From a virus, in IMG/VR virus record IMGVR_UViG_3300032282_001273, positions 1 to 30,111 of that record: DNA of 30,111 nt; one strand, given 5' to 3'. Below are positions 791 to 4,906 of this stretch, in pieces (position 1 is the first letter of the stretch; each line of letters starts with the position of its first letter). The notes beneath the pieces were generated by a model. It was not told the DNA's origin and searched no databases. It saw only the letters and a list, made by a program, of their open reading frames with translations. The translations under genes and the position numbers were made by a program.

Positions 791-823
791 AATGGGATCC
801 TGTTGGATCCCATTTTTGTTTTA
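791..823 (+). terminator. Rho-independent terminator after gp32
   Basis: A perfect 9-bp stem (792-800 pairs with 805-813, ATGGGATCC with GGATCCCAT), extendable by one A-T pair, encloses the loop TGTT and is followed by TTTTTGTTTT. It lies 20 bases after the gp32 stop. It also lies immediately after the stop of the convergent minus-strand gene, where the outgoing strand reads TCTCTTTTCT, so it may work weakly in both directions. Confidence 0.88.
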
Positions 824-2650
824 GACGGCAGATAATCGTCTGCCATATGCAGCGTTACTTGATTCCTGATTTCGAATATTTGGTTTAATAACATTGGTAG
901 TTTTACTCATGTTATTGACTGGTGCATTAACGATGTTAGTCTTATTACCACCACCGCCACCTGCAGTGGCTGCAGCATCAGCGTTGGCTCTTGAACCACC
1001 TTCAACTGCATTTGCTGGTCTCATTGCTGCACCCATTGCAGCGATTTTCTCAACAGGAAGTGCAGCAATTGCTTTAATTTTATCTGGATCGACTTGGGAG
1101 AACATAGAAAGTCCTTTGCCAAGATTCAATACACCAGTACCAGCCTGATTGATTAGTTCACCTTTCTCACCAAGCATCATAATCTGTTCAACTGGAGTCT
1201 TTTGACCAGTCACAGCTGATAAGAATCCAGTCACTAGATTCGAGATACCAGATGCCACATTACCTGCAGCAAATACAGCCATACCTGCACCAATAGATGC
1301 GATGCCTGCACCAACTTGTAGAAGATTCGATCCATCCAGTTTACCTAGTTTTTCTAGACCAACTGTCATCTCATCGAAACCTTTACCGACTGCCTGCATT
1401 GCTTCACCAACAACCCACAATGCACCACCAAGTAAAGTAATTGCAGCTGCACCCAATGTGATAGGAACAATAGCATTACCCATAACTGCAGCTATGATAC
1501 CAATACCAGCAACAGCAAGCATACCCTTACCGATAGTTTCCCATTCTAAATCAGCAAATCCTTGAAGTGCTTCACTCATTAAATACATTGCTCCAGCCAA
1601 TACACCAAGAGCAAATGCACCTTTAATGATAGATCCTTTAACTTTATCCAGACCAATTGCAGCGAGAACTAAACCACCAAGAGCAACCATACCCTTGCCA
1701 ATCATATCCCAATCTACTTCACCGAAATTCTTAAATGCTTCTGCAGCAAGCCATAATGCGCCAGCAATAGCAATTAGTCCAACACCGAACTTCTTCATTC
1801 CTTCGAGTGCTTTACCAAATTTACTACCACCCTCTTCTCCACCACCTTCTTTTGGTTTTGCTTTCTGATCTGGAGATTCACCACGAGTATTTTGTTCAAT
1901 CTTCATTAAAAGATCGTCCATCTTTTCTTCGTGTTTGGCTTCTTCGTTTTGTCTCTCTTCAGCAACACCAGCATCAGCATGTTCTTGAGTAGGGGAAGAC
2001 TCTCGTTTAACTAATCCTGCTCTTAAATCATTTTGCGCATAGGTATTAGATAGTTCTTCACGTTTGCTTAATAATCGTTTACCTTCTTTAGTCTGAGCAA
2101 GTTGAGACTCAGACATTCTACTATCTTTTTTAAGTTTATTAAACTCTGCTTCATTTTCTTTAATATCTTTTGAAGCACGTTCTGCTTTATTAAATTTGTT
2201 TCCAAGAGTAGAACGATCATCTTCAGAGCCAAGTTTACGCTGAGTTTGAATGAACTTCTCTTTTGCGATAGATCTGTTGAAAATACCAGCAACATTAAAT
2301 GCCTTTAGAGCAGTAACTTTAAGAGCAGACATTGAACCAAAGTTATCCTTTAGTTTCTTACCCATGTCACGGACTCTATCACCCATAGTTTTGAATGTTT
2401 CCATACCCTGCGCAATATTTGCAATGGCTTTGGCTTCTTCTTTGCGAAGTTGTAGATTCTCTTTCAGAGCATCATTGGCTTCTTTAATTTTTAACTTTTC
2501 TTGATCCTTTAGTTTAATGGCTTCTAGTTTTGCTTCATTAAACTGTTTATCTTGAAGTTGAGCAATCAATGCTTCTTTGATATCTTTCATCATAGCCGAC
2601 TGAGCAATCTGTTCAGCCAACTGTTGCTGATTTGCACCAGCCTGAGCCAT
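821..2650 (-). CDS. Putative tail tape-measure protein (gp29 equivalent)
   Basis: This 609-residue protein has a charged, helical, probably coiled-coil N-terminal half (about residues 1-260), an acidic/glycine linker (about 258-276), then a hydrophobic helix-rich region (about 285-480) and a Gly/Ala/Asn-rich tail. The hydrophobic region contains three related segments starting near residues 298, 354 and 410, spaced exactly 56 residues; the first two share the pattern W/EW..IGKGM. Tape-measure proteins fix tube length at roughly 0.15 nm per residue; 609 residues is close to T4 gp29 (590), which fits a T4-sized tail of about 90 nm. The gene follows gp26/gp51, where a tape measure is expected. 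No strong Shine-Dalgarno precedes the ATG. I assign function from composition, length and position, not from a sequence motif. A membrane protein is the alternative, but phage context and the mixed helices argue against it. Confidence 0.62.
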   Translation of the reverse strand: MAQAGANQQQLAEQIAQSAMMKDIKEALIAQLQDKQFNEAKLEAIKLKDQEKLKIKEANDALKENLQLRKEEAKAIANIAQGMETFKTMGDRVRDMGKKLKDNFGSMSALKVTALKAFNVAGIFNRSIAKEKFIQTQRKLGSEDDRSTLGNKFNKAERASKDIKENEAEFNKLKKDSRMSESQLAQTKEGKRLLSKREELSNTYAQNDLRAGLVKRESSPTQEHADAGVAEERQNEEAKHEEKMDDLLMKIEQNTRGESPDQKAKPKEGGGEEGGSKFGKALEGMKKFGVGLIAIAGALWLAAEAFKNFGEVDWDMIGKGMVALGGLVLAAIGLDKVKGSIIKGAFALGVLAGAMYLMSEALQGFADLEWETIGKGMLAVAGIGIIAAVMGNAIVPITLGAAAITLLGGALWVVGEAMQAVGKGFDEMTVGLEKLGKLDGSNLLQVGAGIASIGAGMAVFAAGNVASGISNLVTGFLSAVTGQKTPVEQIMMLGEKGELINQAGTGVLNLGKGLSMFSQVDPDKIKAIAALPVEKIAAMGAAMRPANAVEGGSRANADAAATAGGGGGNKTNIVNAPVNNMSKTTNVIKPNIRNQESSNAAYGRRLSAV

Positions 2651-2662
2651 AGAGGACTCTAG

Positions 2663-2812
2663 TTATTTGATGGCAGTTTCGTTAGCCTTTGCCTGTTCTG
2701 AAAGTAGTTTAGAAAAGGCTGTGCTGTCCCACGCATTTACTGACTGTGAGATTGTTTGATTAAGAATCACAGGTTGATCTTTACCTGCATTCTTACTTTG
2801 TCTTTTTGCCAT
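2663..2812 (-). CDS. Small unrecognised 49-residue protein between the gp51-like frame and the tape-measure candidate
   Basis: Reading the minus strand from an ATG at 2812-2810 gives MAKRQSKNAGKDQPVILNQT at the N-terminus and a TAA at 2665-2663. Support: a good Shine-Dalgarno (AGAGGA, eight bases before the ATG) overlaps the end of the gp51-like frame, and the ORF fills what would otherwise be a 165-base gap in a tightly packed operon, ending 12 bases before the next start. The N-terminus is basic; the C-terminal half (about residues 22-49) could form an amphipathic helix. I recognise no family. A role in tail assembly is inferred only from its position between the chaperone and tape-measure genes. 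Confidence 0.6.
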   Translation of the reverse strand: MAKRQSKNAGKDQPVILNQTISQSVNAWDSTAFSKLLSEQAKANETAIK

Positions 2813-2815
2813 CTG

Positions 2816-2998
2816 TTACATCCTCTTTTTGGATTCGATTCTTTTCTTTTCTTCTTCAAGATACTGAATTAACATAAAGACATACACTTCTCGTTCAAAG
2901 GGTATCATGTCTTCCAGCTCAGCCAAAGAGTATTTGTGGTACTGCATCATCGCAAAATTCATTTTATAATAGTTCTCAAGCGATTCATGACTGAGCAA
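2816..2998 (-). CDS. gp51: gp51-like tail/baseplate-hub assembly frame, probably expressed by -1 frameshift from gp26
   Basis: This 60-codon frame has a compact helical, charged sequence (NYYKMNF, YSLAELEDMIPFEREVYV, EEEKKR) of the kind I associate with the small protein following gp26 in T4-like phages (gp51 position, hub assembly). It has no convincing start: the first possible codon is TTG at 2998 without a nearby Shine-Dalgarno, and the first ATG (2962) falls inside the apparent domain. The frame is open upstream across the T8 run at the end of gp26 and is exactly the -1 frame there, so a fusion with gp26 is the likeliest way it is made. It ends in TAA at 2818-2816, within the ribosome-binding region of the next ORF. 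The gp51 identity rests on position and weak family recall; the relation to gp26 is seen directly. Confidence 0.65.
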   Translation of the reverse strand: MLSHESLENYYKMNFAMMQYHKYSLAELEDMIPFEREVYVFMLIQYLEEEKKRIESKKRM

Positions 2999-3723
2999 TA
3001 CTAAAAAAAACTTTGGAGTCCCTCCAGCATCTTAACGTGGTGTCTATTACACACTGGACAATCATATTGAATTTCTTTTTTTATCTTTGGCATAGTTTCA
3101 AAGAATTTTTGTACTCGTGCGAACTGCTCTGAAGATAAATTTTCAATAAATGCTAATAGTTCTTCTCTAGTACTTTCTTTAGCATAAAATAGTTGTTCAC
3201 CATCATAAATGTGATCAATAGATAAAGCCATGATATCAAAAACTGTATCTAAATCATTAACATCAAAACCTTCTAACTTTTTAATAACATCAACTGTAGG
3301 ATACTTCATTACTACACCAACATTACCAAATAGTTCAATTTTATTTGTATGGTCTGCAGATTTTTCTACTGTAATAGTAGATAGATCAACAGTAACAGTG
3401 GCTTTAGCCTTTTCGTTCTGTTCACCATGATCTAAATCACAACCAAAAATCAAATCAACAGTTTCACCAACAGATTTACCACGGATCTGAGTAAACATAT
3501 ACTCTAGATCGAATGTTGCTAGTTTTTCAACATCCAGTTTATCTTGTACGCATGCCTTAACGACTTGCTTTAATGTTTCAATCATTGTTACAACATCTTC
3601 AGATTGCTGAGCAATCAAAAGTGCTTTCTCCTCTTTAACAAGGAATGGGCGATATTTTACTGTCGCTCCACTTGAAGGCACAACCAATGTATAGATTGGT
3701 GCATTCATCATAGGTAAAGCCAT
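2816..3723 (-). CDS. Predicted gp26-gp51 frameshift fusion (G/GT-type tail assembly chaperone)
   Basis: If a -1 shift occurs at the T run, translation passes from gp26 residue 240 through Leu-Val into the 60-codon downstream frame, giving a protein of about 302 residues. Long-tailed phages of the lambda G/GT and P2 E/E' types make a short chaperone and a longer frameshifted one, encoded directly before the tape-measure gene; here the same three-part order occurs (short frame, -1 extension, long helical protein), with one 49-codon ORF between. T4 itself is annotated with separate genes 26 and 51. The frame relationship is seen in the sequence; production and function of the fusion are inferred. 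Confidence 0.6.
3001..3723 (-). CDS. gp26: Baseplate hub subunit / assembly protein gp26
   Basis: This 240-residue protein matches the gp26-type T4 baseplate family of cyanophages in its N-terminal pattern (MALPMMNAPIYTLVVPSSG, then YRPFLVKEEKALLIAQQS) and in the segment IRGKSVGETVDL. T4 gp26 (208 residues) acts in assembly of the central hub. Near the C-terminus is a CxxCxxHH cluster (Cys222, Cys225, His228, His229) that could bind zinc. The product ends in ...LQSFF immediately after a run of eight T, where a -1 frameshift can extend it into the next frame. It begins three bases after the gp16 gene ends. Family identity is fairly secure; whether it is a virion part or a chaperone is not shown here. 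Confidence 0.8.
   Translation of the reverse strand: MALPMMNAPIYTLVVPSSGATVKYRPFLVKEEKALLIAQQSEDVVTMIETLKQVVKACVQDKLDVEKLATFDLEYMFTQIRGKSVGETVDLIFGCDLDHGEQNEKAKATVTVDLSTITVEKSADHTNKIELFGNVGVVMKYPTVDVIKKLEGFDVNDLDTVFDIMALSIDHIYDGEQLFYAKESTREELLAFIENLSSEQFARVQKFFETMPKIKKEIQYDCPVCNRHHVKMLEGLQSFF
3004..3025 (-). promoter_or_regulatory. Candidate programmed -1 ribosomal frameshift signal (slippery T run plus upstream SD-like element)
   Basis: On the minus strand gp26 ends AGT TTT TTT TAG. The heptamer T TTT TTT (3010-3004) lets both P- and A-site tRNAs re-pair after a -1 slip, moving the ribosome off the adjacent stop into TTA GTA TTG and the gp51-like frame. A Shine-Dalgarno-like GGAGGG lies at 3025-3020, nine bases before the heptamer; E. 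coli dnaX uses a similar upstream SD about ten bases before its slip site to stimulate -1 shifting. I see no strong downstream stem or pseudoknot, only a weak CTCA/TGAG pairing. Polymerase slippage on the T8 run is the other possibility. Confidence 0.72.
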
Positions 3724-3725
3724 AA

Positions 3726-4139
3726 TTATTCTCCTTTAGACATATTCTTAATTAACTTATTCAACTCAGCAGTGCTACCTGTAAAGATAACATTGTTATT
3801 CGTCACTTCTTTTCTAGATCCTTCTTTAGGTGTATCTAGTTTTTGTTTCTGTTGATGTAGATCTAATAACTGTTGGTTTATATCAGCCAACTGTTTCATT
3901 AGATTTCCAACAACCTCAAATGCTCTTGGGTGTTCAGACTGCATAGCCACATCAAGTGACTTCTGTAGTGCTTCTTGTCCTTGTTGCAATAATATACGAA
4001 GATTACCTCGAGTAACATCAAAGTCATCTTGAATCTTATTTGTGGAGTCGTTAATAACTTCTCCAGTTTGTGTAATCACTTCAGTCTTACCCATCGGCTC
4101 AATACCAAACTCGGCAGATAATGTTTCATCAATTTTCAT
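3726..4139 (-). CDS. gp16: Terminase small subunit gp16
   Basis: The 137-residue protein follows the T4 gp16 layout: a variable acidic N-terminus, then DDFDVTRGNLRILL (T4 has DDYGVVRRNMHF), a central coiled-coil hairpin containing SEHPRAFEVVGNLMKQLADIN (T4 SPRHMEVFATLMGQM), and a C-terminal NNNVIFTGSTAELNKL (T4 NATVFMGSPTELM). The small terminase forms a ring that recognises DNA and regulates the large terminase gp17 during packaging. It lies between the tube-initiator and hub genes, away from gp17, which is not in this window. Only a weak TGAG precedes the ATG; a GATAAATA late-promoter-like string abuts the start but is too close to drive this gene. Confidence 0.82.
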   Translation of the reverse strand: MKIDETLSAEFGIEPMGKTEVITQTGEVINDSTNKIQDDFDVTRGNLRILLQQGQEALQKSLDVAMQSEHPRAFEVVGNLMKQLADINQQLLDLHQQKQKLDTPKEGSRKEVTNNNVIFTGSTAELNKLIKNMSKGE

Positions 4140-4153
4140 TATTTATCTCATAG

Positions 4154-4906
4154 TTAGAATTTCAATAATCCTGGAAGTTTTGTTACCCCATACGATAGAA
4201 CTGAACCAGTCAAGAAGTTACCTGCTCTGGTGCCAAGTGTATTGTTAATCGTTTCTTGAAATCCAGTAAAATTTTGAGTCATTTTATCAAAGAAATTAGT
4301 AGGAACTTTCTGTCCATCAGCCAGCGGAGATTTAGGAGATGCAATCCAGTTTTTGTACTGCATTCCAATACTAATCTTCATAACATCTTTTGCAGCGTAA
4401 TCCATTTGAATTGAACTAATAGTTTTAGGGTAACATTCAAATAAAGTCATCTCATAGCGAGTTTTATCATTGATATCTTGAACTTCAATAACCATATCTG
4501 TAATGTAGTCATTGTAGTAGTTGTATGTTTTTGTAACTGGGTTTGAGATTATATTAGACCAGTCATCAAACAAAGATTTAACTTTCATATCTACGTCAAC
4601 ATAAAACGACATAGTAATATTATCATATAGTTTCTCGTATGGAACCTCACGGAATTCTCCGAATGTTCTATTTTGAGTAGTTGAGTAGTTTGTTCCTGGA
4701 AGCTGAATCTGATCGCAGAACAAAAGAATCTTTTGTAAGTTTGCTGGATTAATACCTTGAGGTGGAGTAAACAAAACTGCATATCGATTAGTTCTTGCCA
4801 ACGCTCCAGATTTTATCTGAGAGATAAACTGATTAATAGGTTTTTGATCTCTACCTGTAACTCTATCTGTTATATCTTTTGTGGAAAATGGTAAGTTAAG
4901 TGCCAT
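4154..4906 (-). CDS. gp54: Baseplate tail-tube initiator gp54
   Basis: The 250-residue protein carries the tail-tube-like pattern ALARTNRYAVLFTPP, then LLFCDQIQLPG, YEKLYDNITMSFYVD, the LFDDW element, and LFECYPKTISSIQMDYAAKDVMKISIGMQYKNW, as in the gp54/gp19 group of T4-like phages. T4 gp54 (320 residues) sits on gp48 at the top of the hub and starts polymerisation of the gp19 tube. The short N-terminal extension and the C-terminal tail (from about residue 190) distinguish it from a plain tube subunit. Its start is one base beyond the stop of the upstream gene. gp19 itself is the alternative, but the baseplate neighbourhood and the extra ends favour gp54. Confidence 0.78.
   Translation of the reverse strand: MALNLPFSTKDITDRVTGRDQKPINQFISQIKSGALARTNRYAVLFTPPQGINPANLQKILLFCDQIQLPGTNYSTTQNRTFGEFREVPYEKLYDNITMSFYVDVDMKVKSLFDDWSNIISNPVTKTYNYYNDYITDMVIEVQDINDKTRYEMTLFECYPKTISSIQMDYAAKDVMKISIGMQYKNWIASPKSPLADGQKVPTNFFDKMTQNFTGFQETINNTLGTRAGNFLTGSVLSYGVTKLPGLLKF

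Follow-up and report, generated by a model that had tools for sequence, protein, structure and literature searches.

A close counterpart in arrangement is the G/GT pair of phage lambda, where a short chaperone gene lies just before the tape-measure gene and a −1 shift near its 3′ end adds an extra domain read in the −1 frame. Both the chaperone role and the reasoning on the ratio of short to long form derive from lambda; T4 has long been cited as the case that departs from the rule of a frameshifted tail chaperone (PMC5009743). A −1 shift at a conserved GTTTTT at the 3′ end of TAC-N, followed by an unannotated tail, was further described for the tail assembly chaperones (TAC) of Pseudomonas phage Adele (Vandenendeviridae) and of Andersonviridae (PMC12846349). 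These belong to other virus families and are likened to the locus studied here by their published description.

For T4-like phages, the chaperone was reportedly assigned to genes 26 and 51 by Vladimirov, Gautam and Davidson in 2022. Two papers citing this work (Virology 566:9–15) credit it with the assignment of T4-like phage chaperones (PMC10885494, PMC12846349). According to the PRFect paper, some T4-like phages possess a short and a fused gene and use no frameshifting (PMC10885494), while the Adele paper refers to the work for slippery poly-T stretches in the TAC-N genes of T4-like phages (PMC12846349). With the present locus these chaperones share the PF12322 family and the same two domains. 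Our literature search yielded no primary paper on gp26/gp51 frameshifting, the 2022 work being known to us through the papers that cite it. Sullivan et al. 2010 reported cyanophage gp51 to amount to only about 20% of T4 gp51 and to lack its first ~200 residues, with no mention of a frameshift (PMC3037559). The kind of system is thus already known, and the frameshift idea, by the two citing accounts of Vladimirov et al. 2022, is not new. Our addition is modest: we show how far the arrangement extends, describe the constraint on a Shine-Dalgarno (SD)-like element and account for the short cyanophage ‘gp51’.

Results

Site and reading frames in the window

The window, i.e. the whole stretch of DNA analysed here (30,111 nt), is a 30 kb virus record from IMG/VR encoding the tail and baseplate of a T4-like myovirus. 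The features of the locus are collected in Table 1.

Table 1. Features of the gp26–gp51 locus, listed 5′ to 3′ along the minus strand of the window
Feature	Position	Strand	Basis and remarks
Tail tube protein gene	4154..4906	-	phrog_45 E=5e-36, PF23849
Small terminase-like gene	3726-4139	-	between tail tube gene and gp26
gp26-like gene, tail assembly chaperone short form (TAC-N)	3001..3723	-	240 aa; PF12322 E=1.4e-58, phrog_150 E=5e-65
SD-like GGAGGG, probable shift stimulator	3020..3025	-	sequence and GAG preference; 9 nt upstream of heptamer
Slippery heptamer T_TTT_TTT	3004..3010	-	sequence; inside T run 3003-3010 (eight T's)
Zero-frame stop TAG of gp26	3001..3003	-	sequence; abuts heptamer
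-1 frame extension, gp51-type C-terminal domain of predicted long form (TAC-NC)	2816..3004	-	62 codons + TAA; phrog_634
Tape-measure-like gene	821..2812	-	phrog_4372 tail length tape measure E=7.7e-13 for 821-2650

The gp26-like gene scores 198.7 bits against PF12322 (curated cut-off 24.5), and its 3′ end reads CAA AGT TTT TTT TAG on the minus strand. From position 3004 the −1 frame runs to a TAA at 2818–2816 (LVLLSHES...KKRM). Its first start-like codon is a TTG at the third codon without SD sequence, while the first ATG is codon 15. A preliminary description of this DNA, made from the letters and their reading frames, had placed the gp26 end, the T run, the heptamer and the GGAGGG nine bases before it, had described the next frame as exactly −1, open across the site and provided with neither a Shine-Dalgarno sequence nor a start other than TTG, and had proposed a fusion of about 302 residues. 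All of these positions are correct and the underlying observation is confirmed; the fusion length is the one predicted by frame arithmetic, 240 + 62 = 302 aa. Readthrough of the frame-0 stop was considered and rejected, the next stop following after only 13 codons.

gp26 and the −1 frame, in the following called the tail, lie between the tail tube and tape-measure genes, all on the same strand. The tape-measure candidate claimed downstream is borne out by its profile match, and its ATG (2812–2810) lies three bases past the tail stop. About 49 codons into this gene there is an in-frame TAA (2665–2663), so that the ORF seems to start at 2650; near relatives such as L003, L018 and L020 carry a sense codon at this position, and the TAA reflects a sequence error or else a genuine nonsense variant.

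Conservation of the slippery heptamer

Scanning of viral contigs with gp26 yielded 80 relatives from IMG/VR, 79 of them readable beyond the gp26 end. A wider census, to which matches of cyanophage, rhizobiophage, Aeh1 and T4 queries as well as named phage records were added, comprised 265 gp26-like/gp51-like genes, and clustering at 75% identity gave 74 representatives. T_TTT_TTT or T_TTT_TTC is found at the gp26 stop in 79/79 IMG/VR relatives at identities down to 57%, and their −1 frame stays open over 61–63 codons, apart from a few loci that are truncated or reach the contig end and one with a deletion. In L016, a jump of ~80 bases into the tail after the T run breaks the −1 frame, a deletion or misassembly by which most of the tail is lost, and in L004 and L061 the tail is shorter than in other relatives.

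Throughout the census, an in-frame T_TTT_TT[T/C] at most 12 codons from the gp26 stop was found at 246 loci, window included, at which the −1 frame ends within the locus (median 62 codons) and, in 245 cases, is a homologous tail. The heptamer is present in 62/62 non-redundant clusters with a terminal Phe-Phe, and the 12 clusters devoid of it comprise five genes of Ackermannviridae type and otherwise gp51 genes of T4 type, one of them a fragment. Outside this position the 74 representatives have one such in-frame heptamer per 16,837 codons, which places its occurrence at the gp26 end well beyond chance. Phe-Phe elsewhere in these genes begins with TTT in only 23 of 72 cases. Both TTTTTTT and TTTTTTC occur, most clusters featuring TTTTTTC with six T's, and the phase is always X_XXY_YYZ, the in-frame motif at a conserved position characteristic of programmed −1 frameshifting. 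Comparison with relatives, as proposed beforehand, hence revealed conservation of both the T run and the −1 relation.

Across 60 relatives aligned without gaps, the window among them, synonymous variation is lower at the last seven codons of gp26 than in any other of the 234 windows of this size (mean 0.13 vs 0.39). Near the site, Ser is AGT in 59/59, the first Phe is TTT in 60/60 and Glu is GAG in 59/60 aligned relatives.

Two variations of the site were additionally observed. In L181, L207, L226, L227, L229 and L241, gp26 extends eight codons past the heptamer, leaving a short dual-frame stretch before the zero-frame stop. Vibrio D486 (L095), Stenotrophomonas Yut2 (L088), L231, L243 and L258 combine a T_TTT_TTY heptamer with a stop-overlapping ATG in the −1 frame, so that frameshifting and reinitiation could both operate.

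SD-like element and RNA structure

An upstream SD-like stimulator is a frequent, though not required, feature of programmed frameshift sites, and GGAGGG in the window is of this kind. Like the T run and the −1 relation, the element proved conserved in relatives, though none was found in 12/62 clusters, and its presence partly follows a conserved Glu-Gly. Where Glu occupies the position, it is encoded by GAG in 31/39 clusters, compared to 30% GAG among the Glu codons of these genes (binomial p=2.8e-10 with clusters taken as independent, which is only roughly true). This excess of GAG over GAA suggests selection on the SD-like element itself, beyond what Glu-Gly would bring along as a by-product. 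E. coli dnaX likewise has an SD-like element, ~10 nt upstream of its homopolymer heptamer. There, however, the heptamer is A_AAA_AAG and a downstream stem-loop follows. A 3′ stem-loop or pseudoknot is likewise common at programmed frameshift sites without being required; in the window, a stem-loop search of the 60 nt downstream turned up none that convinced (z=+1.2). Over the clusters, the same stem-loop search gave a mean z of −0.9, with 12/62 below −2.

Conservation, starts and annotation of the tail

For the tail, phrog_634 (‘baseplate hub assembly catalyst’, the cyanophage gp51) is matched with E=9.5e-26; a Pfam search with the tail alone returned nothing meaningful even at E<=10. A median pairwise dN/dS of 0.018 among close relatives, compared to 0.15 for gp26, shows strong purifying selection on the tail. 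An ATG with SD within the first 25 tail codons exists in only 5/62 clusters, and 8/62 clusters show an ATG overlapping the gp26 stop in the −1 frame (TGATG or TAATG). The position of candidate starts in the −1 frame varies between clusters, mostly without a preceding SD. We thus find a −1 domain that is conserved as protein and, as a rule, devoid of a good start of its own, and the good own start downstream that had been named in advance as contrary evidence is rarely seen.

In public records the tail is either entered as a short gp51 with an internal ATG as its start or left without annotation, and the annotated internal starts remove conserved tail residues. In the records of S-WAM1, S-MbCM7, Sf-CH1b and P-RSM1 (L273–L276), the whole tail is an unannotated gap of ~175–190 bases between gp26 and the next gene. 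By its sequence, the short cyanophage ‘gp51’ as annotated is just part of the −1 tail, which explains why it looked like only ~20% of T4 gp51 and misses the first ~200 residues.

T4 and other arrangements of the gene pair

T4 gp26 and T4 gp51 both match PF12322 over the full model length, and T4 gp51 alone extends into the tail, with matches to phrog_150, up to position 280, and to phrog_634. In hhalign comparisons with T4 gp51, the gp26 alignment matches the N-terminus (E=3.6e-11) and the tail alignment the C-terminus (E=1.1e-6). On these profile matches, T4 gp51 is the PF12322 (gp26) domain and the tail joined in one frame. T4 gp26 ends in GLKEFFELL with Phe-Phe encoded by TTC TTT after G and therefore cannot slip canonically. 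In contrast to the single gene with −1 tail of the present phage, T4 possesses two genes, a short gp26 and a fused gp51, and no shift site. The separate genes 26 and 51 of T4, which the preliminary description had mentioned, are thus no refutation, as T4 gp51 itself constitutes the fused form. The simplest reading would be that a T4 ancestor swapped the frameshift for a second, fused gene, a direction suggested by these comparisons.

Three Vibrio phages of Ackermannviridae type (L090, L091, L094) have a conserved −1 tail and no T_TTT_TTY, and their gp26 stop overlaps an ATG (TAATG), which suggests reinitiation in these phages. Salmonella SFP10 (L092, 3220–3402) and Klebsiella Madison (L093, 3289–3462) carry a conserved, unannotated −1 tail (LIFEIDLLSYF...) after ...GAG ATT TTC ATT TAA, with neither canonical heptamer nor overlapping ATG.

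Fold of gp26

An AlphaFold2 model of gp26 (pLDDT 87) was compared with solved structures by VIA-align. The three best matches, all spanning gp26 residues 1–92, are the HK97 tail assembly chaperone 2ob9 (Z 7.7), YqbN from a Bacillus prophage (7.1) and, at 5.4, ORF19 from a PICI-like element in V. cholerae; the next match follows at 4.3. For 2ob9, 84 residues are aligned with an rmsd of 4.2, and the Z of 7.7 lies just below the safe level for a shared fold. Foldseek gave a probability of 0.80 for the HK97 chaperone at an E of 0.88, a weak match. A profile search of gp26 against the sequences of solved structures yielded no relative, the HK97 chaperone being found by fold comparison only. The resemblance of the modelled gp26 N-terminal domain to a TAC fold lends support without settling the matter by itself.

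Discussion

We propose that −1 ribosomal frameshifting very probably yields a short chaperone and a fused, long gp26–gp51 chaperone from the locus studied here. A conserved site and a conserved tail are read directly from the sequence, and from these we infer the slippage itself. Most ribosomes would halt at the TAG and release the 240-aa gp26 as the short form. A minority would pause at T_TTT_TTT, probably aided by pairing of the upstream GGAGGG with 16S rRNA, whereupon P- and A-site tRNA-Phe would re-pair one base back and translation of the 62-codon −1 frame would lead to the long form of ~302 aa. That TTTTTTT and TTTTTTC are both found, and in the same phase, is as predicted for tandem slippage and favours such re-pairing of tRNA-Phe.

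The proposed membership of gp26/gp51 in the G/GT class is supported by the position before the tape-measure gene, the architecture of T4 gp51 and HK97 as best fold match, and we consider the assignment of gp26 plus tail to a G/GT-type tail assembly chaperone supported. The chaperone role would then follow from analogy with lambda: many short and few long copies may cover the tape measure, whose gene lies just downstream, and the tail tube protein may be recruited by the extra domain. However, the shift site here is T_TTT_TTT at the stop codon and not that of lambda, the likeness drawn here being one of arrangement, and the first domain is 240 aa long, with 85 chaperone-like residues at its start and further parts behind them.

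Alternatively, the tail could be made as a separate small protein (‘gp51’), from its own start or by termination–reinitiation at the gp26 stop, without any fusion. In cyanophage records an internal ATG is indeed taken as the start of a short gp51 (43 aa in Syn1, 31 aa in ACG-2014a), and both the clusters with a stop-overlapping ATG and the Ackermannviridae-type TAATG lacking a heptamer fit such production. We nevertheless regard a separate protein as improbable for this phage, since the first ATG in the −1 frame of the window comes only at codon 15 and an SD is lacking, ATGs differ in position among the clusters and are rarely combined with an SD, and the annotated internal starts clip conserved residues. 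In addition, a separate product leaves the heptamer and the synonymous-site conservation unexplained, while T4 gp51 encodes both domains fused. The fusion could also arise from mRNAs with an altered number of T's after slippage of RNA polymerase on the T run, as eight T's are present in the window, about the length where polymerase slippage begins. With only six T's in the TTTTTTC of most clusters and the X_XXY_YYZ phase always kept, this explanation is even harder to uphold and has very little probability. A homopolymer sequencing or assembly error, or a decayed gp26 gene, is suggested by the generally error-prone T8 run and the unexpected stop in the neighbouring tape-measure gene, but is practically negligible, as the same relation in some 245 loci, including the isolate genomes Syn1, ACG-2014a and Aeh1, and the purifying selection on both frames refute sequence error as a general explanation. 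Reinitiation, transcriptional slippage and sequence error are thus all much less likely than ribosomal frameshifting.

If −1 frameshifting is accepted for the present locus, the tail is misannotated or missing in many cyanophage records and should be joined to gp26. Despite T4 as the cited exception, the frameshift arrangement is kept by most of the T4-like relatives sampled. More tentatively, and less likely than not in our view, one homologous chaperone gene might have switched among three ways of making the long form or the tail, namely −1 frameshifting in this phage, cyanophages and Aeh1, a TAATG overlap without slippery site in the Ackermannviridae-type phages and a second, fused gene in T4. 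If true, this three-way switch would constitute a natural series for asking what sets the ratio of short to long chaperone.
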